NCBI RefSeq assembly: GCF_016865365.1
Contig: NZ_AP024469.1
Coordinates: 2,882,501 to 2,946,500 of the forward strand
Direction: 5' to 3'
From: Geobacter sp. SVR
GTDB taxonomy: Bacteria > Desulfobacterota > Desulfuromonadia > Geobacterales > Pseudopelobacteraceae
Length of the DNA stretch: 64,000 nucleotides
The notes beneath the pieces are model-generated. The model was given only the letters and a program-made list of their open reading frames with translations, made no database searches and was not told the origin of the DNA. Position numbers and translations under genes: made by a program. Of this stretch, positions 168-10,702 are shown piece after piece (the stretch's first letter is position 1; the number at the start of each line of letters is the position of its first letter).

Positions 168-685
168 TTTTTAAAACATGGCAAATCGAGGTATCAGGTG
201 CGGGTGAATCAATAGTTATATGGGTTGTTTGTTATTTATTTATAGCCTTTTAATTTGGTTATTATGGTAAAAATGAGTTTGCTTCGCGATCCGTATGGAT
301 CACAAACAATGGATCAGGCTTGCACTCTTTGATATTCGGGGAAAGTTGAGCATAAATATCAAATGGTGCAAGCCTGACCCAGCTGATCTTCCGTTCCCGA
401 TAGCCAACGGCAAGCCGATCGATGGAGCTACGGCCATCCAGGAGACGGTGAGGGGGAATATGGGACTGACGGACCCTCCAAGCTCGCCACCGGCAGCGAA
501 ATAAAGTCATTGCATCAGCCGGCACCGCCACCGATGCCATCTCACGGCCCATCGGGAGCACCACCGCAGTCCCTGCAAGCGTTTGATTCCCAGTTCTCTG
601 GCGCCGACGATAAAATGCGCGGTCTAGAATCCATAGTTCAGCCATCAGGCCCGCCTGTCGCCTCTCCGGCACTGACCGTCACCCC
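168..685. other. Intergenic stretch with one palindromic repeat; no convincing gene
   Basis: About 520 bases between the cut gene and the IS element. It holds the palindromic repeat at 314-377 and a short GATCC-gtat-GGATC palindrome near 289-302. Open frames exist on both strands, including a minus-strand one of 136 codons, but they are proline/arginine-rich, run through the palindrome and show no domain. Confidence 0.5.
314..377. repeat. Palindromic interspersed repeat, copy 1
   Basis: Nested inverted repeat: outer arms TCAGGCTTGCAC (314-325) and GTGCAAGCCTGA (366-377), inner arms TTTGATATT and AATATCAAA, with a loop of about 18 bases containing GAAAGTTGAGCATA. Related copies lie at 8993-9066 and 11463-11512. 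The form resembles REP/RAYT-type or MITE-like intergenic elements. No mobilising enzyme was found beside it. Confidence 0.75.
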
Positions 686-732: not shown

Positions 733-1044
733 ATGGAGTCACAACGCAACACACCGCACAAGTACGATGCCGAGTTTAAAGCTGAAGCGTTGAAGCTGGT
801 TCTAGAAGACAACCGCACCATCCGCGAAGTTGAAAGCAGCCTCGGGATCACCCATGGAGTTTTAAAAGGGTGGCTCCAGAAGCATCGTGACCAGCAAAAT
901 CCGGCCATTGCCAGGCAGGGATCTGCAGAAGCAGAGCTTAAGCAACTACGCAAAGAGAACGAACAACTCCGCCGGGAGCGTGAAATCCTAAAAAAAGCTG
1001 TGGCCATCTTCTCGACGGACCCACATCGTTATTCGGGTTCATAA
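733..1044 (+). CDS. IS3-family transposase OrfA
   Basis: 103 residues. It has an N-terminal helix-turn-helix (KYDAEFKAEALKLVLEDN, REVESSLGI) followed by a leucine-zipper-like coiled coil (EAELKQLRKENEQLRRERE), the normal plan of OrfA, which binds the IS ends. The last 17 residues are identical to OrfA of the second copy at 7649. The A7G run at 990-997 sits at the LKK codons and moves ribosomes into the orfB frame. Confidence 0.85.
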   Translation: MESQRNTPHKYDAEFKAEALKLVLEDNRTIREVESSLGITHGVLKGWLQKHRDQQNPAIARQGSAEAELKQLRKENEQLRREREILKKAVAIFSTDPHRYSGS

Positions 1045-1067
1045 CCGAGCACCGCTCCGAATTCGGA

Positions 1068-1895
1068 GTGAAGGAGATGTGCCGAGTTCTGGGAGTGACT
1101 CGGAGTTGGTACTACGCTCATACGGCCGGCAGAGTAACGAGACGGCAGCGCGAAGACCAGACGTTGTTGCCAACAATTAAATCCGCCTTCGAAGATAGCG
1201 AAAGCACATATGGTGCGAAACGGATCACCAATAAACTACGCCAGCTAGGGCGGCGCGTCGGAAAAAACCGCATCTGGCGCCTGATGCGCGAAAACGGCCT
1301 TAAAGTCAAGACGACGCGGAAGTTCAAGATTACGACGAACTCAGATCACAAGCGTCCTGTAGCTGACAATCTGGTGAAGCGTCAATTCTCCGCTGCCGCT
1401 CCTAATCGGCTTTGGACCGGTGACATAACGTACATTGAGACGGCCCAGGGTTGGTTGTACTTGGCAGTGGTCCTTGACGTGTTCTCCCGCCGGATCGTGG
1501 GCTGGAGCATGAACAAACGCATGACAGACGATCTTGTTATAGCTGCTCTTACCAATGCGATAGTCAGGCGTCGGCCATCACCAGGATTTATTTTCCACAC
1601 GGATCGAGGGTCACAGTATTGCAGCAAACGGTTTCGTGCCGTGGTCGAGAAAGCAGCTGGCATCCAAAGTATGAGCGGAACCGGGTGCTGCTATGACAAT
1701 GCAATTACGGAAACCTTTTTCTCCACACTGAAGAGGGAGCTAATTTACCACTGCTCCTTCACGACCCGGCAAGAAGCACAGAGCCGGATATTTCGTTACA
1801 TCGAAGGCTTTTACAACCGCAAGAGGATTCACTCTGCGATTGGCTATCTCTCTCCTGACCAATTTGAGCAGCAGGAGCTAAAGGTGGCAGCATAG
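1068..1895 (+). CDS. IS3-family transposase OrfB (DDE integrase)
   Basis: 275 residues from a GTG at 1068; in vivo it is probably made as an OrfAB fusion through the frameshift at 990-997, since the -1 frame is open from there into orfB. The order is HTH_21 region (ESTYGAKRIT, VGKNRIWRLM), then an rve catalytic core with the DDE residues in WTGDITYI, FHTDRGSQYC and NAITETFFSTLKREL, then the YNRKRIHSAIGYLSP end. All catalytic residues are present, so the copy may be active. Confidence 0.9.
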   Translation: MKEMCRVLGVTRSWYYAHTAGRVTRRQREDQTLLPTIKSAFEDSESTYGAKRITNKLRQLGRRVGKNRIWRLMRENGLKVKTTRKFKITTNSDHKRPVADNLVKRQFSAAAPNRLWTGDITYIETAQGWLYLAVVLDVFSRRIVGWSMNKRMTDDLVIAALTNAIVRRRPSPGFIFHTDRGSQYCSKRFRAVVEKAAGIQSMSGTGCCYDNAITETFFSTLKRELIYHCSFTTRQEAQSRIFRYIEGFYNRKRIHSAIGYLSPDQFEQQELKVAA

Positions 1896-1931
1896 AATTT
1901 TGAGTGTGTCCTCTATTGCGAAGACAGGTCA

Positions 1932-2246
1932 GCCTATGGGGGGTTTTCGTCACTGCTATTTCTCCCATTGCCTTTCGTTTCAGATGAAGTCTCACTAACA
2001 AAAATCATTTGAGAACTTAATATATTATCCTCCAAACCTTCTTTACAACCTGCTGAGCCATGCCAACATCCAACAAAATATGTTGCGGGTGATCACTTTA
2101 AAGTTAAACTAATTTTTATTTATTTATATACTTTTTCCAATTGACTAAATTTTATTTTAAATGGTATACAGTCCGCACTCAAAAGCGATCCTCTTTTTAG
2201 GGCATCCGCAGAATGCAACTACACATCACCAACATTGGATAGCAAT
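1932..2246. other. AT-rich intergenic region holding the azl operon promoter
   Basis: About 315 bases without a gene. A sigma-70-type promoter lies at 2141-2170 and gives a leader of roughly 70 bases. No riboswitch-like structure was recognised by eye. Confidence 0.6.
2141..2170 (+). promoter_or_regulatory. Sigma-70-type promoter of the azlC operon
   Basis: TTGACT (-35, 2141-2146), 18-base spacer, TATACA (-10, 2165-2170). It is the best promoter match ahead of azlC and lies in very AT-rich DNA. Confidence 0.65.
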
Positions 2247-2966
2247 ATGAAAAACACACAGCGTACAGGCAATTCGGTGTTGTGGAACGCAGCGCGAGAT
2301 CTCAATCCTCTGATAGTGGGGATGTTACCTTTTGCAATAGCCTTCGGGATTTTTGGGGTCACCTCCGGAATCCCGGCTTTTTATGTCATCCTGATGTCGG
2401 CAACGGTCTATGCGGGACTTGCCCAGTTCGTCGTAGTGAACATGTACACATCCGGAATTGATCAAATTCCACTGCTGATCGGATTTGTCATGTTGGTGAA
2501 CGTCCGGTTCTTTCTTATGGGTATCTCATTGCTGCCATACAGTGCGCTTCAGCCAAAATGGCAACGCTTTTTGCTTGCGTTCGGCTTGTCAGACGAACCG
2601 TATGTGGTGGTCATCAATAGATTCACCACCAAGGGGTATAACCTGCACTATCAAGTGTATGCGTATAGCCTGGTATATCTGTTCTGGGTACTTGGAACTG
2701 CGATTGGATGCGCAGTGAGCCGAGTTATTACCGACCCGCTCGCATTGGGGGTGGATTTCGCCATGTGTGCGGCTTTTCTAGTAATGCTGTTTCCCCGTCT
2801 TCGCTCTCCCCAAAACCGACTTGCCGCAATCGTGAGTAGCGGCAGCGCGGTAATACTGCACCAAGCAGGGCTGGGTGAAGGGGCCATTGTGGCCGCAAGC
2901 ATTCTTGGGTTCTGCACTGTTGTGGCAGTCAAAAACTTGTTCTCAACGTACGTCCGGGAGGCATAA
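2247..2966 (+). CDS. azlC: AzlC-family membrane permease (large subunit)
   Basis: About 239 residues from the ATG at 2247 (GGAT lies seven bases upstream; an in-frame TTG at 2235 is an alternative). It is a hydrophobic multi-span protein with AzlC hallmarks: LIVGMLPFAIAFGIFGV, a motif around ATVYAGLAQFVVV and the LVNVRFFLMG segment. With AzlD it forms a two-component exporter known for branched-chain amino acids and analogues. Its substrate here may differ, because it heads an operon with a radical SAM enzyme and a ureohydrolase, so it may export their product (inference). Confidence 0.85.
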   Translation: MKNTQRTGNSVLWNAARDLNPLIVGMLPFAIAFGIFGVTSGIPAFYVILMSATVYAGLAQFVVVNMYTSGIDQIPLLIGFVMLVNVRFFLMGISLLPYSALQPKWQRFLLAFGLSDEPYVVVINRFTTKGYNLHYQVYAYSLVYLFWVLGTAIGCAVSRVITDPLALGVDFAMCAAFLVMLFPRLRSPQNRLAAIVSSGSAVILHQAGLGEGAIVAASILGFCTVVAVKNLFSTYVREA

Positions 2967-2968
2967 AG

Positions 2969-3286
2969 ATGCAGACAAAGCTGTTGACCCTTATCGGACT
3001 AATGGCTGTGGTTACGTATGTAACTCGAGCTGGGCATTTATTGATTCCTCAAGACAAAATTCCGACCTGGATTCGAGAGCATCTTGACTTGATCCCTGTT
3101 GTGATTATGTCATCAATCGTATCAACCTCGATTTTTATTCATAATAATTCATGCAAGTTGGAATACTCAGCAACGTATATCGTTGCGGCCGTCATCACCG
3201 TCCTGACGTATGTTTTTCTGCGTCGCGGGGGGGTGGCCGTCATGGTTGGACTGGGTTTCCATATTGGTCTCAAAATGTTTTTTTGA
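2969..3286 (+). CDS. azlD: AzlD-family membrane protein (small subunit)
   Basis: 105 residues, starting two bases after azlC stops, so the two are translationally linked. It has the usual AzlD size and layout: short hydrophobic spans, the VTYVTRAGHLLIP segment near the start and an IPVVIMSSIVST span. AzlD pairs with AzlC to form the exporter. The N-terminal RAGHLL part resembles the RxxP region of the family. Confidence 0.85.
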   Translation: MQTKLLTLIGLMAVVTYVTRAGHLLIPQDKIPTWIREHLDLIPVVIMSSIVSTSIFIHNNSCKLEYSATYIVAAVITVLTYVFLRRGGVAVMVGLGFHIGLKMFF

Positions 3287-3335
3287 GAACCACGAGAGCT
3301 GTGATAGTGCCGAAAATTTCTGAGGAGGCAATCGA

Positions 3336-4280
3336 ATGATTCATGACAACCTGCATGCAACCCACCATCAAATTGTTCATCTTTATATGACTTCCTATAC
3401 GGATCATCTTGCAGAAATGATCCGCGTGCACGATGCCGTTTCCGGGTATTACAAAAATGAGTTGGGTAAATTATTCATCATTATCCATGTGGTCGAAGAT
3501 TCTCCCGTAGTGCTGAACATGTTAGAAGACACCATTCTAACCATTCGAGAGGTGCCGGGAGAATTAAAACAAGATCCTATCATCGCGATTATGATTAACG
3601 AGGATAAAACTTCAGTCGAGACCCTTGAGGCGTTAGCAAAACTTGATACGCGCAGCCCCCGCCTGCAGGTGGTTTTCTCTGTAACCGACTCTCAGCCGTT
3701 TCACCAGTATACCAACTCTCTGGAAAGCTTGTTGCGCAAAGCAGAACAGCTTTTTCTGCAATGCCGTGTGCGGTTTAATCTGGTAACGCCAGATCGTTCT
3801 CTTCCATCAATAAAAGATTACCTGAACCCCATACTATCAAGTAAGAGCTATTTACAAGCATTCTTCGAAAAATACCCACCGATTATCGATATCCCCCTTT
3901 TTGCCCAGATCGAAAATATGGACCACTTTGCAAACGAGATCATCGATTTTTGGGAATGTTTTCCCTGGGTAGAAGAAACAGTTCCCTTCATGACGAATGG
4001 ATTAATGCGACTCTTTTTCATCACAAAAGAGCAGAATTTTCTACAACATATAATCCGTCGAGATGTTCAGCGATATTCTCCAGGTGAGGCAAGAACCTCC
4101 ATCGCATGCTTAAGAAAGGTTCAAAAAATTGATCATAGCTTCCGTGCCGGCTTACAGCATCGGACTACATCAGCAGTCGACAACCATCAGTTTCATTACA
4201 CAAAAAAATCGATTGCCTTAGATCATGATTGGGATTTTGTGTTCGATTCTTACGAGTGTCAATCACCAATTTTTATTTAA
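3336..4280 (+). CDS. Unrecognised 314-residue protein of the radical SAM operon
   Basis: The start ATG at 3336 follows a good ribosome site (GAGGAGG, 3321-3327). It looks soluble, with no signal peptide or membrane span. Residues about 45-110 read like an alternating strand/helix fold (KLFIIIHVVEDSP, DPIIAIMINEDKTS, RLQVVFSVTDS), and the C-terminal third has several His (HRTTSAVDNHQFHYT). No known motif is seen. It lies between azlD and the radical SAM gene (17-base gap), so it is probably a partner, carrier or second enzyme of that pathway. The function is unknown. Confidence 0.7.
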   Translation: MIHDNLHATHHQIVHLYMTSYTDHLAEMIRVHDAVSGYYKNELGKLFIIIHVVEDSPVVLNMLEDTILTIREVPGELKQDPIIAIMINEDKTSVETLEALAKLDTRSPRLQVVFSVTDSQPFHQYTNSLESLLRKAEQLFLQCRVRFNLVTPDRSLPSIKDYLNPILSSKSYLQAFFEKYPPIIDIPLFAQIENMDHFANEIIDFWECFPWVEETVPFMTNGLMRLFFITKEQNFLQHIIRRDVQRYSPGEARTSIACLRKVQKIDHSFRAGLQHRTTSAVDNHQFHYTKKSIALDHDWDFVFDSYECQSPIFI

Positions 4281-4297
4281 TGAACCGGGAGGGGTAG

Positions 4298-6010
4298 ATG
4301 AGTGTTGAAATTGATATTATCTTGTTGAAGTTGCCAAATCACAATATTGACTATCCGAGCTTATCTATACCAACACTGACACGTGCACTCCGGAATGATG
4401 GGATTACGGTTATTCAACAAGATGTTAATGTTGAACTTAAGGATATTCTACTTACTCAAAGATGCCTTGAAGAAATCACCTATGAGTTTTTACCAGCAAT
4501 ATGTGAATACTTTATCAGCGATCCTGAAGAGTACACTCGGGTAAAAAACATGGTTATTTACCTGAATAATATTGATACTACCATTGGATTTGGTGCTTTG
4601 GAAAGCGTAAAAAGTCAATTGCTGGAGCGTAAATACAAACAAATCTTTACCTCAACAGAGTCGAGTAACAACACCCTGATTCTCTTTACCATAGCAAGCT
4701 TGCTGCACAATGTTATCGATCTTGCAATCACATTGGACGAGCTGAATGCCCCGATAGCGCAGGACAACGTGGTAATTCGCTTCATGAAGGACAAGATCAA
4801 ATCGATTGCAGCCATCAATTCCCGTATTGTCAGTTTTTCAGTACTCGATATTCAACGCAAGGCAACGCTTTGGTTCGCAAAGCGTTTACGCAAGGTTTAC
4901 CAAGGAACTATAGTTGTAGGAGGACCTGATGTCTCTATATTTCGCGACAATTTCATCCGGCATTACCCATTCATCAACGTCGCCTTTTTGAAAGAATCCG
5001 AGGTCAGCTTGGTAAAGTTTGTTCAGGGAGTCCCTGTAGATACTATAGATGGGGTCATTTACCGTGACATAGATGGCACTGTTCGTATAAACGAGCCAAA
5101 ACACGAACCAAGCAATTCAGTATATCGCCCAGATTTCGATGGATTTCCACTGGATAAATTCCTTCTTCCCACCTTGCCAATCAGTGCTTCTCGAGGTTGT
5201 AAATGGGCTATTTGTAAGTTTTGTGTCCATCATCAAACGTACACCAGTTACTATGAAAGAACAGCGAGTGCTGTTGTCGATGACATCGAGTATTTTGTCC
5301 AAAAGTATCATACACGTTATTTTCATTTTACCGACGATATGCTGGATATTACGATCGGTACTGCAATCGCCCGGGAGCTTATTCAAAGAGGCTTAGATAT
5401 AAACATCCTTACATATGCTCGCTTTCAAAATGGCTTCACTCCAGAGATTCTCGATCTTTGGGCACGTGGCGGCATCAAGGTCATTGAATGGGGGCTTGAA
5501 TCCGCCTCCCCAAGAATGTTGAAAGAGATGGCAAAGGGAATCTCCATAGAAAAAGTGCAAACCATTCTGAAAGATAGTCGCGAAAAGGGCATCCTCAATA
5601 AACTCATGCTGTTTCATAACTACCCTTCGGAAACCATAGACGATTTTGAGCAAACTGTTGATTTCTTGGAAAAAAATATCGAAGAACGAAATGTGCGCCC
5701 ATTTTTCACTATTCGAAACAAACTGGAATTAAGATTGAATTCCGAACTGGATCATCTTTCACAACAAGCCAATCAGACTATTTTTCCAAAACGATGGAAT
5801 ACAAGTAGTATTTTTCAATCTAAAATAGAATATGAAGATACTCCTGACTACCCTGTAAAATTACATAAACTCGAAGCTTTTCTTGGCAGAATGCAGCATC
5901 TTGTCAGTTCACGTCGAGTTTTCAGCACAAATGACGAAAACTTAACGCTCGACCTTGTGGTGCTCGATGTCAGCGCACAAGAGGATAAAATGTGCATCCA
6001 AAGTATTTAA
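4298..6010 (+). CDS. B12-binding-type radical SAM enzyme
   Basis: 570 residues, start with GGGAGGGG just upstream. The N-terminal 270 residues follow the Rossmann-like cobalamin-binding plan of this class (LSIPTLTRALRNDGITV; RIVSFSVLDIQRKA; GTIVVGGPDVSIF; DTIDGVIYRDIDG), although no DxHxxG motif is visible. The radical SAM core begins at PISASRGCKW with cysteines 301, 306 and 309 (CX4CX2C rather than the common CX3CX2C), followed by FHFTDDMLD and IKVIEWGLESAS. Such enzymes methylate or rearrange unactivated carbons in natural products and cofactors. The substrate is unknown; the next gene suggests a guanidino compound. Confidence 0.85.
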   Translation: MSVEIDIILLKLPNHNIDYPSLSIPTLTRALRNDGITVIQQDVNVELKDILLTQRCLEEITYEFLPAICEYFISDPEEYTRVKNMVIYLNNIDTTIGFGALESVKSQLLERKYKQIFTSTESSNNTLILFTIASLLHNVIDLAITLDELNAPIAQDNVVIRFMKDKIKSIAAINSRIVSFSVLDIQRKATLWFAKRLRKVYQGTIVVGGPDVSIFRDNFIRHYPFINVAFLKESEVSLVKFVQGVPVDTIDGVIYRDIDGTVRINEPKHEPSNSVYRPDFDGFPLDKFLLPTLPISASRGCKWAICKFCVHHQTYTSYYERTASAVVDDIEYFVQKYHTRYFHFTDDMLDITIGTAIARELIQRGLDINILTYARFQNGFTPEILDLWARGGIKVIEWGLESASPRMLKEMAKGISIEKVQTILKDSREKGILNKLMLFHNYPSETIDDFEQTVDFLEKNIEERNVRPFFTIRNKLELRLNSELDHLSQQANQTIFPKRWNTSSIFQSKIEYEDTPDYPVKLHKLEAFLGRMQHLVSSRRVFSTNDENLTLDLVVLDVSAQEDKMCIQSI

Positions 6011-6079
6011 CGAACGGCAATTCCCCGTTCAGGTCTCTGCTCCGGGATGAGGTTTGACAGAAAATTATAAGGAGAAGCA

Positions 6080-7045
6080 ATGGATAACAAAACTATTGGA
6101 TCAGTAATCTCAAGTGCTCCACGTTTCTGCGGAATTACGAGTTTTATGCGACTGCCCCATACTCGTGACCTTAACGAGGTAGATGTTGCAATCATCGGCA
6201 TCCCGTTTGATTCAGACGGAGCCTTTCGAATTGGTTCCCGTTTTGCACCGGAGTCCATCCGTTCGCAGGGGAAACTGTGCCTGAGAAACTATCATATTGC
6301 CCATAATATAGCGCCTCTAGAGCATATCAAGGTTGTGGATTTTGGAGATTCTGCCGTCATACCCGGTTCTGTTGAGCGAACATACGAGGTTGTTGAATGT
6401 GAAGTATCCCCGATATTTCAGGAAGGGGTTATCCCAATCGCTTTAGGAGGGGACCACTCGATTTCCTTACCGCTGTTAAGAGCTGCAGCAAAAAAATACG
6501 GTAAGGTAGCTTTGGTACATTTTGACGCCCACCTTGATACAGGTGACGTCTATTATGATGAAATCAAATACACCCACGGCACCCAATTTCGTCGTGCCGT
6601 GGAAGAAGGTCTTGTCGACACCTCAAAGTCCATCCAGGTGGGGATGAATGGAACTATTTATCCTGAAATGACCCGCGAATATTCTGAGACTTTAGGATAC
6701 AAGATCATTACAATGGACGAGGCGGCTGCGCTTGGTTCCCAAATGGTAGCCAATGCTATTCTTGAACGTACTCAAGGCTTACCAGTTTTCTTCTCTTTTG
6801 ATATTGATATCATGGACGTTTCTGTCGCCCCTGGTTCTGGAGCTCCGGAAGTAGGCGGCTATCTAACTCGCGAAATGCTCCAGATACTCAGAGCACTGCG
6901 CGATCTAAACATCATCGGCGTAGATATAGTTGAGGTAAACCCGTTATTCGACAGTGGTCAGATAACCTCCATTCTGGCAGCAAATATCGTATTTGAATTT
7001 CTTGCAATGATTGCTACTCGAAAGCGACAGAGACAACCAATGTAA
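6080..7045 (+). CDS. Ureohydrolase (arginase/agmatinase family)
   Basis: 321 residues, ATG preceded by AAGGAGAAGCA. The manganese-binding motifs of the family are present: GGDHS, DAHLD (as FDAHLDTGD) and SFDIDIMD, plus SGAPEVGG. The enzyme should hydrolyse a guanidino group and release urea (known family chemistry). Agmatinase, guanidinobutyrase and guanidine hydrolase are all possible; the third motif reads DIMD where most agmatinases have DxxDP, so the substrate may be unusual. It is the last gene of the azl/radical SAM operon and is followed directly by a terminator. Confidence 0.85.
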   Translation: MDNKTIGSVISSAPRFCGITSFMRLPHTRDLNEVDVAIIGIPFDSDGAFRIGSRFAPESIRSQGKLCLRNYHIAHNIAPLEHIKVVDFGDSAVIPGSVERTYEVVECEVSPIFQEGVIPIALGGDHSISLPLLRAAAKKYGKVALVHFDAHLDTGDVYYDEIKYTHGTQFRRAVEEGLVDTSKSIQVGMNGTIYPEMTREYSETLGYKIITMDEAAALGSQMVANAILERTQGLPVFFSFDIDIMDVSVAPGSGAPEVGGYLTREMLQILRALRDLNIIGVDIVEVNPLFDSGQITSILAANIVFEFLAMIATRKRQRQPM

Positions 7046-7063
7046 CTTATCTTAGATATCGAC

Positions 7064-7105
7064 AAAAAAAGGGCGGCCATACTTGATGGTCGCCCTTTTT
7101 GTTGG
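7064..7105 (+). terminator. Rho-independent terminator of the azl/radical SAM operon
   Basis: GGGCGGCCAT (7071-7080) pairs with ATGGTCGCCC, flanked by A7 before and T5 after. It ends the operon 20-60 bases behind the ureohydrolase stop. Confidence 0.85.
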
Positions 7106-7159
7106 TATGTGATGCTGGCAGAGGCCTCGTAAGCTTCTCTGTCAAGTAAGCAGTTTGAA

Positions 7160-7317
7160 AGTACGAGTTTCCGGTATGGTTTTGGTGGAACCATCCAGGC
7201 CGTATAGGAGGGAGTCATACCGGTGTACATGATATTCATCAGGTAGAGGATCAGGGACCGCAGCGAGATCAAGGAGTACGGAAGACTGGCCCCTGTAGCG
7301 GCAGCAGGGCGGGAAAT
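7160..7317 (+). pseudogene. Decayed copy of the SDR-end / DUF1330-start junction
   Basis: Bases 7187-7317 match 10384-10515 at roughly 90% by eye: the last codons of the SDR gene, the TATAGGAGG ribosome site and the start of the DUF1330 gene. In this copy the DUF1330 start ATG has become ATA and a TAG stop follows nine codons later, so it cannot be expressed. The match stops abruptly at 7317, where a racemase fragment begins. Weaker similarity extends left to about 7160. Confidence 0.75.
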
Positions 7318-7319
7318 AA

Positions 7320-7589
7320 TCCATCACTTTTGTCGTGCCGGACGACCAAGACCAGCAGTTCATTCAGGAAAAGCTTGTCACCGAGATTGAAAAGGGAATC
7401 ATGAAAGAGGATACACGCTCTTCTTTACTGAGCATTATCGAAGGCATGAGAGAACGGGACGGCATCGAGGCTGCGATTCTCGGATGCACCGAACTCCCCT
7501 TGATTTTTGCCGATAACGACGCGAATATATCTCTCCTTAATACTACCGCACTGCATGTCGAAGAAATCTGCAAATATTGCCTTGGCTAA
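7320..7589 (+). pseudogene. C-terminal fragment of an aspartate/glutamate racemase
   Basis: About 89 codons that match the last third of Asp/Glu racemases: the P-x-x-x-x-Q start, KGIMKEDTRSSLLSII, the catalytic-cysteine motif AAILGCTELPL, and LLNTTALHVEEI. A complete enzyme is about 230 residues, so the N-terminal two thirds with the first catalytic Cys are missing. The fragment is fused to the DUF1330 remnant at 7317. A GTG at 7335 could start translation, but the product would be inactive. Confidence 0.75.
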
Positions 7590-7648
7590 CAAGGTGAGCT
7601 ATCTTCACTTTAGCGGACACATCAATTACCCTAACGGGAACAGGAGGT

Positions 7649-7960
7649 GTGTCCATGGTCAATCGACGGTACGATTCAGACTTCAAGCGCGAAGCCGTGC
7701 GCATGGTTGTTGAAGATGGTTTGAGTGTTCGCGAGGTTGAACGTAGCCTCGGGATCACTTACGGAGTTTTGAAGGGCTGGGTGCAGAAGCACCGTGATCA
7801 TCAAGACGCCGCGTTTGTCGGGCGCGTTGCTCCGGAGTCGCCTGAGGCTGAACTGAAGCGGCTACGCAAAGAGAATGAACGACTCCAACGGGAGCGAGAC
7901 ATTCTAAAAAAAGCAGTGGCCATCTTCTCGACGGACCCGCATCGATATTCGGGTTCATAA
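7649..7960 (+). CDS. IS3-family transposase OrfA, second copy
   Basis: 103 residues with the same plan as the OrfA at 733: helix-turn-helix (RRYDSDFKREAVRMVVED, REVERSLGI), then coiled coil (EAELKRLRKENERLQRERD) and an identical end, KKAVAIFSTDPHRYSGS. The start could also be the internal ATG at 7655. The A7G slippery run is kept at 7906-7913. It is intact although the rest of the element is broken. Confidence 0.8.
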   Translation: MSMVNRRYDSDFKREAVRMVVEDGLSVREVERSLGITYGVLKGWVQKHRDHQDAAFVGRVAPESPEAELKRLRKENERLQRERDILKKAVAIFSTDPHRYSGS

Positions 7961-7983
7961 CCGAGCACCGCTGCCAGTACGGA

Positions 7984-8507
7984 GTGAAGGAGATGTGCCG
8001 CGTTTTTGGAGTGTCTCGGAGCCGGTATTACACTCAGCTTAATGCCAAAGCGACCAAGCGGCGGCGTGAGGATCGGGCGCTGCTGGTCGATATCAAGGCA
8101 GCCTTCGACGACAGTGACCAGACCTATGGTGCGGGCCGCATTGGCCACGAGCTTCGCGCTCGAGGTACCCGGGTGGGCAAGAACCGCATCTGGCGCTTGA
8201 TGAAACTGCACGGGCTGAGGGTCAAGACCATGCGCCGCTTCAAGCTCACGACGAATTCGGACCACAAACGACCAGTGGCTCCGAACCTGGTCAAGCGCAA
8301 CTTTTCGGCCGAAGCCCCGGTCGGCTCTGGACCGGAGATATCACCTACATCTGGACCGCCGAAGGCTGGCTGTATCTTGCCGTCATTCTGGATGTCTTTT
8401 CCCGCCGGATTGTTGGCTGGAGCATGGACAAGAGGATGACGGATACCTTGGCTGTCACTGCGTTCAAGAATGCCCTGGTGCGGCGGCGCACTGCTGCTGG
8501 CTTGATC
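7984..8507 (+). pseudogene. Frameshifted and truncated IS3 OrfB
   Basis: The start GTG at 7984 begins MKEMCRVFGVSRSRYY, like copy 1. Reading is normal to NFSAEAP, then one base is missing at about 8317 and the frame changes; the correct continuation (RLWTGDITYIWTAEGWLYL) is found in the next frame up to ALVRRRTAAGLI at about 8507. The HTDRG and NAITE regions that carry two of three catalytic acids are absent. Confidence 0.85.
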
Positions 8508-8992: not shown

Positions 8993-9066
8993 GGGTCGAG
9001 GCTTGCTTGCATTCTTTGATATTCTGAAAAGTGGAGCATAACCATCAGATGGTGCAAGCCTGACCC
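8993..9066. repeat. Palindromic interspersed repeat, copy 2
   Basis: Arms GGGTCGAGGCTTGC and GCAAGCCTGACCC enclose TTTGATATT and AAGTGGAGCATA, as in the copy at 314-377. The similarity continues past the right arm (TTGATCTTCC here, CTGATCTTCC in copy 1), so the mobile unit is longer than the hairpin. Confidence 0.7.
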
Positions 9067-9134
9067 TGTTGATCTTCCTCAAACGACGCATACCCGCACA
9101 TCTCACCGATGCGACTCTACTCCGCTTCCTTCCA

Positions 9135-9633: not shown

Positions 9634-10404
9634 ATGAAAAACGAGTTTGCGGGGAAAAAGGCGCTGGTCACGGGAGGTACCAAGGGAATGGGGCAGGCCA
9701 TGGCGCTCCGCCTTGCCGCAGGGGGAGCGGATGTCATCGTTGTTGCGCGAAATATGCCCCCGGAGTTTCCGCTGAAAGGGATAGAAGCGGACATAGCCAC
9801 CAGCGAAGGAACGGACCAGGTTATCGAGCATGTCAAAAAGGAGTTCGGCTGCCTGGATATCCTGATCAACAATGCCGGCGGGTCGAAATCTCCCATGGGG
9901 GGATATATCAATCAAACCGACGATGAATGGCAGAACATGTTCGAGCTCAACCTCTTCGGCGCGGTACGGCTGGACCGGGGACTCCTGCCCGGCATGACGG
10001 AGCGGGGTAAAGGGGTCATCATCCATGTCTCCTCCATCCAAAGCCACAAGCCGATCTATGAATCTACCCTTGCTTATGCGGCGGCCAAGGCGGCCTTGAA
10101 TAACTACAGCAAGGCTTTGTCGCTGGAGGTGGGAAAACATGGCGTGCGGGTGAACGTCATCTCGCCGGGATTCATCGAGACCGAGGCGGCCGGCGCCTAT
10201 GTCAGGCAGATTGCGGAGGATAAGGGCATCAGCATCGATGAAGCCCGGCAGGAGATCATGGACTACATCGGCGGCATACCGCTCGGAAGAACGGGGCGCC
10301 CCGAAGAGGTGGCGGAGCTGGCGGCCTTTCTTGCTTCGGACCGGGCTGCCTGGATAACAGGGGTCGAGTACCGGATCGACGGCGGAACCATTCAGACCGT
10401 ATAG
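9634..10404 (+). CDS. Short-chain dehydrogenase/reductase
   Basis: 256 residues, ATG after CGGAGGAATC. Classical SDR motifs: TGGTKGMG (cofactor loop), NNAG, the catalytic Ser in HVSSIQS and Tyr/Lys in YAAAK, then SPGFIETE and the C-terminal GxxYRIDGG. It oxidises or reduces an alcohol/carbonyl with NAD(P)(H); the substrate cannot be told. The DUF1330 gene begins 11 bases after the stop. A 131-bp copy of this gene junction lies at 7187-7317. Confidence 0.9.
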   Translation: MKNEFAGKKALVTGGTKGMGQAMALRLAAGGADVIVVARNMPPEFPLKGIEADIATSEGTDQVIEHVKKEFGCLDILINNAGGSKSPMGGYINQTDDEWQNMFELNLFGAVRLDRGLLPGMTERGKGVIIHVSSIQSHKPIYESTLAYAAAKAALNNYSKALSLEVGKHGVRVNVISPGFIETEAAGAYVRQIAEDKGISIDEARQEIMDYIGGIPLGRTGRPEEVAELAAFLASDRAAWITGVEYRIDGGTIQTV

Positions 10405-10414
10405 GAGGGCAGCT

Positions 10415-10702
10415 ATGCCGGTGTACATGATATTCATCAGGGAGAGGATCAGGGACCGCGGCGAGATCGAGGAGTACGGAAGGCTGGCTCCTGCAGCGGC
10501 AGCAGGACGGGAAATGAAGCCTCTGTCCGTCTACGGGAAACTGGAAACGCTTGAGGGACCGGAAGCCCAGGGTGTCGTGCTGTTGGAATTTCCGACGCAT
10601 GCAGAGGCAATGGCCTGGTACAACAGCGAGGAATACAGGGAGGCCAGACGACATCGGTTCCTGGGGGCGGATTACCGGGTATTTGCGCTCGAAGGAACAT
10701 GA
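10415..10702 (+). CDS. DUF1330-family protein
   Basis: 95 residues, close behind the SDR gene with TAGGAGG ahead of the ATG. It matches the DUF1330 ferredoxin-like dimeric alpha/beta-barrel pattern: MIFIRERI, a PAAAAAGREMKPLSVYGK region, LEFPTHAEAMAWYNSEEYREAR. The family lacks a defined reaction; members often sit beside oxidoreductases, as here. Probably co-transcribed with the SDR gene under HxlR control. Confidence 0.85.
   Translation: MPVYMIFIRERIRDRGEIEEYGRLAPAAAAGREMKPLSVYGKLETLEGPEAQGVVLLEFPTHAEAMAWYNSEEYREARRHRFLGADYRVFALEGT

Follow-up and report, generated by a model that had tools for sequence, protein, structure and literature searches.

Several parts of the locus described here have counterparts in characterised systems. 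In Bacillus subtilis, the two-subunit AzlCD transporter exports azaleucine, histidine and asparagine, and it reportedly protects against diaminopropionate (PMC10882977). An amino-acid-type exporter is also found within a small antimetabolite cluster, AMB, where it is represented by the LysE-type protein AmbA (PMC4357302). Among ureohydrolases, R72 of GbuA is proposed to bind the carboxylate of the substrate, reaching it from the neighbouring subunit (PMC9772407). The locus in question lies in a 64-kb window, the whole stretch of DNA that was analysed (positions 2882501-2946500 of a 4.72-Mb single-contig genome), of a bacterium probably from a Geobacter-like group that has been little studied for natural products. 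The gene content of this host, on which that placement rests, includes multihaem cytochromes, NrfA and many B12-type radical SAM proteins.

Within the window, genes for an AzlCD-type exporter, an orphan protein of 314 residues, a radical SAM enzyme and a ureohydrolase stand together as one block, and neither a described system with the same five-gene set nor a paper linking AzlC with a radical SAM enzyme was found in a limited literature collection. Our preferred but tentative reading, to which we assign a probability of about 0.38, is that the block is an imported, self-contained operon that would make and export a small modified amino-acid-like molecule. Below, we set out the layout and apparent origin of the block and the predicted properties of its products, and we weigh this reading against four others before returning to the comparison with known systems.

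Layout and origin of the five-gene block

Five open reading frames follow one another on the forward strand between positions 2235 and 7045: azlC (2235-2966, starting either at a TTG at 2235 or at an ATG at 2247), azlD (2969-3286, beginning 2 nt past azlC), the gene for the 314-residue orphan U314 (3336-4280), that for the 570-residue radical SAM enzyme (4298-6010) and that for the 321-residue ureohydrolase (6080-7045). All parts that can be recognised fall into known superfamilies, with matches of AzlC to PF03591 (E=8.1e-32), AzlD to PF05437 (E=5.1e-15), the radical SAM enzyme to PF04055 (E=3.4e-15) and the ureohydrolase to PF00491 (Arginase, E=1.5e-83). The gaps along the block measure 2, 49, 17 and 69 nt, and clear or strong Shine-Dalgarno sequences precede the last four genes, with none clear for azlC. 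The operon is closed on the same strand by an intrinsic terminator at 7059-7106, a hairpin of -27.3 kcal/mol with the sequence GGGCGGCCAT-ACTTG-ATGGTCGCCC, followed by the T-rich stretch TTTTTGTT. The five closely spaced genes and the one terminator reported in a first-pass annotation of this DNA are thus confirmed. The single promoter that completed its description fared less well: a sigma-70-like candidate (TTGACT-18 nt-TATACA, about 2141-2170, forward strand) is visible on inspection, yet the operon region has no more promoter-like sites than shuffled sequence (10 observed vs 12.1 +/- 3.4), and the candidate is therefore unproven. An RNA-element search returned no hits, and 1896-7648 holds no small ORF that combines precursor-peptide features with a ribosome-binding site.

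In composition, the block departs markedly from its surroundings. GC content per gene is 0.40-0.51 in the operon vs 0.56-0.64 in comparison genes, and third-position GC, which runs from azlC to the ureohydrolase gene as 0.57, 0.48, 0.44, 0.40 and 0.41, compares with 0.67-0.81 across nine genes elsewhere in the window. The operon is thus more AT-rich than the rest, as first described, and the difference in third-position GC indicates that all five genes were imported. The same values can be read in another way, namely that azlCD on one side and the genes for the orphan, the radical SAM enzyme and the ureohydrolase on the other are two or more fused pieces, each acquired from its own source and acting on its own. 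Third-position GC indeed drops stepwise, from 0.48-0.57 in azlCD to 0.40-0.44 in the later block, and the widest gaps precede the orphan gene (49 nt) and the ureohydrolase gene (69 nt). However, the genes share one strand, good ribosome-binding sites and a single terminator, and no repeat or IS remnant lies between the parts, so that we regard such a fusion as very unlikely.

IS3-family DNA lies on both sides of the block, as the first-pass annotation had noted, but the borders are two different truncated elements rather than copies of one. The upstream element (760-1932, forward strand) lacks its left end; ten other genome copies, to which it is 92% identical, reach about 75 nt further left. 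Elements of this type occupy 11 places in the genome, the ten elsewhere being near-identical to one another and the window copy their 92% relative, and one of the near-identical copies is found on the opposite strand, about 3 kb before the window begins. The downstream element (7594-8444, forward strand) is a truncated remnant that stops inside orfB and shares about 71% identity with the upstream type. Because the flanking elements are only about 71% alike and both are truncated, a composite IS3 transposon is ruled out.

Repeats around the block suggest another route of arrival. A 75-nt direct repeat (left copy at 318-392, forward strand; 86.7% identical to its partner at 9005-9078) occurs in these two copies only across the 4.72-Mb genome (E<=1e-5) and brackets a stretch that includes both the IS elements and the operon; an inverted repeat (310-336 and 355-381) lies in the left copy. 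Just past the operon terminator, at 7184-7317 on the forward strand, lies a remnant comprising the end of an SDR gene and the start of a DUF1330 gene, which is 89.6% identical to 10381-10515 in the intact partner genes downstream. The right-hand repeat partners are 1.4 kb apart and enclose an intact hxlR-SDR-DUF1330 segment; between the left-hand partners, 6.9 kb apart, lie the IS and the operon. Most simply, the operon together with the IS may have replaced the middle of a second, decayed hxlR-SDR-DUF1330 copy, which would put the foreign DNA's right edge somewhere in 7106-7184, less than 80 nt from the terminator. Further on, positions 7335-7589 encode the C-terminal end of a protein from the Asp/Glu racemase family (model positions 143-210 of the 211 in PF01177), in what looks like a pseudogene; the window holds no second copy.

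Predicted enzymes, orphan protein and exporter

The radical SAM enzyme carries the cluster motif C301-x4-C306-x2-C309, and its three cysteines are invariant among relatives. Those in the same class are 22-24% identical over the full length, with local matches of up to 37%, and no close relative was found among about 85,000 species genomes or in viral contigs. An AlphaFold2 model (pLDDT 71, pTM 0.75), built from an alignment of 16 sequences whose rows were drawn from genome loci, shows an N-terminal Rossmann-like domain with a helical insert, followed by a radical SAM core; the insert and the C-terminus are poorly predicted. The model aligns with TsrM (Z 23.8, rmsd 4.4, 423 aligned), OxsB (Z 23.7, rmsd 3.4, 390 aligned), AprD4 (Z 23.6, rmsd 3.2, 382 aligned) and MgmA (Z 22.2, rmsd 3.7, 362 aligned) in matches that cover residues 3-568 and hence both domains, and it also matches CysS (Z 20.9) and TokK (Z 20.6). 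This alignment over both domains supports the earlier designation as a B12-type enzyme in the sense of a predicted architecture, as do the motif and the two-domain fold (Z 22-24), while Pfam's B12-binding family is matched only weakly (E=0.002). AprD4, which has the same fold, is not known to use cobalamin.

Among curated families, the enzyme scores highest against TIGR03975 (rSAM_ocin_1, RiPP maturation radical SAM C-methyltransferase), at 132.8 bits vs a cut-off of 281.85; 21 further NCBIfam families match more weakly, and no subfamily cut-off is passed. That this is the top named family, and that conversion of arginine to ornithine is known in RiPPs (PMC12703449), would fit a pathway acting on a ribosomal peptide, which would be C-methylated by the radical SAM enzyme and have its arginines converted to ornithines by the ureohydrolase. 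We consider such a RiPP pathway very improbable. The score does not reach half the required value, and further two-domain radical SAM proteins in this class obtain comparable scores against TIGR03975. Peptide arginases belong to Pfam family PF12640 (PMC12703449), whereas the ureohydrolase matches PF00491 only, with no PF12640 match at E<=1, and a peptide arginase was accordingly rejected. Finally, the operon holds no credible precursor ORF, no protease, no peptide exporter and no RiPP partner genes.

An anti-phage role was also considered and rejected: the radical SAM enzyme matches the candidate system PDC-M51A (E=1e-15), but it has matches to numerous families of B12-type radical SAM proteins as well, and none of the remaining parts of a PDC-M51A-type system accompanies the gene. 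A separate observation concerns a plasmid of Jannaschia sp. W003 (locus L047, 5281-8108), on which a nitric oxide synthase oxygenase gene comes immediately after a related B12-type radical SAM gene; here too, an enzyme of this type has an arginine-using enzyme as its neighbour.

The assignment of the ureohydrolase as a guanidino-hydrolysing enzyme holds at the level of its class, and all six metal ligands (H126, D149, H151, D153, D241 and D243) are conserved in the alignment. Its top solved relatives are GbuA, GpuA and proclavaminate amidinohydrolase (PAH), at E of about 1e-63 or better, followed by agmatinases at 2e-51; identities amount to 39.6% with GbuA, 37.3% with GpuA, 37.5% with PAH and 35.7% with E. 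coli SpeB, and a tree gives the protein no clear place among GbuA/GpuA, PAH and SpeB. In both pairwise and multiple alignments, R69 falls on the putative carboxylate-binding R72 of GbuA, and its retention favours a guanidino acid over agmatine as substrate. The protein is therefore probably a guanidino-acid hydrolase, and a plain agmatinase is the less likely identity, an objection to the first-pass proposal that keeps some weight since the TIGR01230 agmatinase equivalog cut-off is passed (188.9 vs 174.3 bits). Human AGMAT, for comparison, is an agmatinase by annotation and yet hydrolyses guanidino acids (PMC9772407).

The passed cut-off would also fit a plain agmatinase or arginase of polyamine or arginine metabolism that came to lie beside unrelated genes through chance of transfer, which we judge quite unlikely. 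No arginine decarboxylase or polyamine gene is found in the operon or immediately beside it, the search score is nearer to guanidino-acid hydrolases than to the E. coli agmatinase, R69 is kept, and the operon signals and composition are common to all five genes. Moreover, the host has a separate ureohydrolase of arginase type, the only other one found in the genome, which is 27-30% identical and lies far from the operon. At locus L108 (4197-6285), this second gene is on the same strand as, and just downstream of, a gene apparently similar to the TIGR00300/LOR-SDH type, which belongs to arginine or ornithine metabolism.

The 314-residue protein has no accepted match in Pfam, NCBIfam or PHROGs; DUF7036 (E=0.0065) and phrog_22798 (0.06) were rejected as families, both falling under threshold. 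No relative rose above noise in genome, plasmid, phage and viral collections, where the scans of genome contigs and viral contigs detect close relatives only, and none was found in 146 other near genomes (two of the same genus) or in 395 genomes of the phylum. A single-sequence structure model has a mean pLDDT of 54.5 and at this low confidence shows beta/alpha repeats, with higher confidence in residues 35-150. Its fold matches, to a designed TIM barrel (Z 8.2), ChlB (Z 7.8) and viperin (Z 7.5), are at the level common to barrels, and given these values together with the pLDDT we claim no fold. The possibility of a degenerate radical SAM barrel was rejected as well: the protein lacks the three-cysteine motif, its BLASTP comparison with the neighbouring radical SAM enzyme gives E=0.018 over 60 residues, and the corresponding profile comparison gives a probability of 1.9%. 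The first-pass suggestion of a carrier finds no support; better guesses are an additional enzyme or a protein that works together with the radical SAM enzyme.

Both exporter subunits score above the Pfam gathering thresholds, with their genes 2 nt apart. AzlC reaches 74.5 bits vs a TIGR00346 equivalog cut-off of 332.35, which places it in a different orthologue group from B. subtilis AzlC, and its closest relative in the phylum is 34% identical, with none above about 35%. By homology, AzlCD would here work in the export direction.

Gene linkage and the proposed pathway

A check in other genomes of whether azlCD and the ureohydrolase gene stay with the radical SAM gene and the orphan gene, as the first-pass annotation suggested, lends no support: relatives of the radical SAM enzyme, the ureohydrolase and AzlC lie at loci with none of the other operon genes, except for azlD beside azlC; none of the 29 AzlC loci in the phylum holds a radical SAM or ureohydrolase gene; and the 314-residue protein has no detected relative to place. 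All the relatives used are remote (22-48% identical to the operon proteins), so that the check neither supports nor refutes a pathway, and the linkage of the genes therefore rests on one genome.

We infer a single pathway for the five genes, together with its substrate, order of reactions and product and the role of the 314-residue protein. In a first step, the cobalamin-type radical SAM enzyme would modify an unactivated carbon of an arginine-derived guanidino acid, most likely by C-methylation, with the 314-residue protein perhaps acting as an obligate partner or an extra enzyme. The ureohydrolase would then remove urea and leave an amine, as does PAH in clavulanate biosynthesis, and AzlCD would export the product and thereby also protect the producer. 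Several features argue for this scheme: the tight co-directional layout with its ribosome-binding sites and terminator, the low third-position GC in 5/5 genes, the edge of foreign DNA placed within 80 nt of the terminator, the alignment of the radical SAM model with B12-type enzymes of which many act on small molecules, the solved relatives, intact metal ligands and R69 of the ureohydrolase, the export of several amino acids, toxic ones among them, by B. subtilis AzlCD (PMC10882977), the parallel with AmbA, and the lack of a credible precursor peptide in the operon. Against it stand its occurrence in one genome, the agmatinase cut-off passed by the ureohydrolase and the weak B12-binding match. 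With no adenylation, carrier or aminotransferase gene in the operon, the pathway would need a ready-made starting metabolite. The synthesis and export of a small molecule proposed in the first-pass annotation is thus the most economical reading, with the enzyme classes correctly named, although the linkage check lent it nothing.

The enzyme classes could also serve breakdown, since GbuA-type enzymes are mostly catabolic and some homologues of the ureohydrolase in other genomes adjoin permease, dehydrogenase and aminotransferase genes. In a catabolic or detoxifying operon, urea would be released from an environmental guanidino compound, the radical SAM enzyme would activate or remodel the substrate, and a toxic amino acid would be exported. 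The operon, however, has no importer, urease, urea carboxylase, aminotransferase or dehydrogenase, its transporter is of the exporter type, and a cobalamin-type radical SAM enzyme would be a costly tool for catabolism; we hold a catabolic role to be unlikely. Returning to biosynthesis, a more specific version of the preferred reading would be a minimal, carrier-less natural-product pathway, in which the radical SAM enzyme and a dedicated new partner remodel arginine or a guanidino acid, followed by deguanidination and the export of a non-protein amino acid by AzlCD. In this specific form the proposal is doubtful. Should the five genes work jointly, the result would be a very small, portable route to a modified amino acid, bringing with it a new radical SAM substrate and an uncharacterised partner protein. 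The chance of a new natural product is real but unproven.

Comparison with known systems

The exporter resembles B. subtilis AzlCD in that both subunits are encoded by adjacent genes (PF03591, PF05437), but differs in that the operon lacks the azlB regulator. With TsrM, OxsB, TokK and CysS, and with AprD4 for the fold, the radical SAM enzyme shares a two-domain architecture over nearly its full length and an intact three-cysteine motif, while it is 13-21% identical to these proteins. The ureohydrolase has in common with GbuA (3NIO) and GpuA (3NIP) the metal ligands, the HGT-FRR motif, the carboxylate-capping arginine and an identity of 37-40%; in contrast to them, it lies in a biosynthesis-like operon and carries the unusual DVSVAPGSGAPE where most relatives have DPxxAPGTGTPE. 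PAH of the clavulanic acid pathway (PDB 1GQ6) belongs to the same Pfam family at 37.5% identity, and the proposed likeness would extend to function, in that PAH removes the guanidino group from a carboxylate-bearing pathway intermediate. However, the carboxylate-capping arginine of GbuA is kept in the ureohydrolase described here and not in PAH, and in place of the beta-lactam or clavaminate-type genes of the clavulanate system, the present operon has a radical SAM enzyme, an orphan protein and AzlCD.
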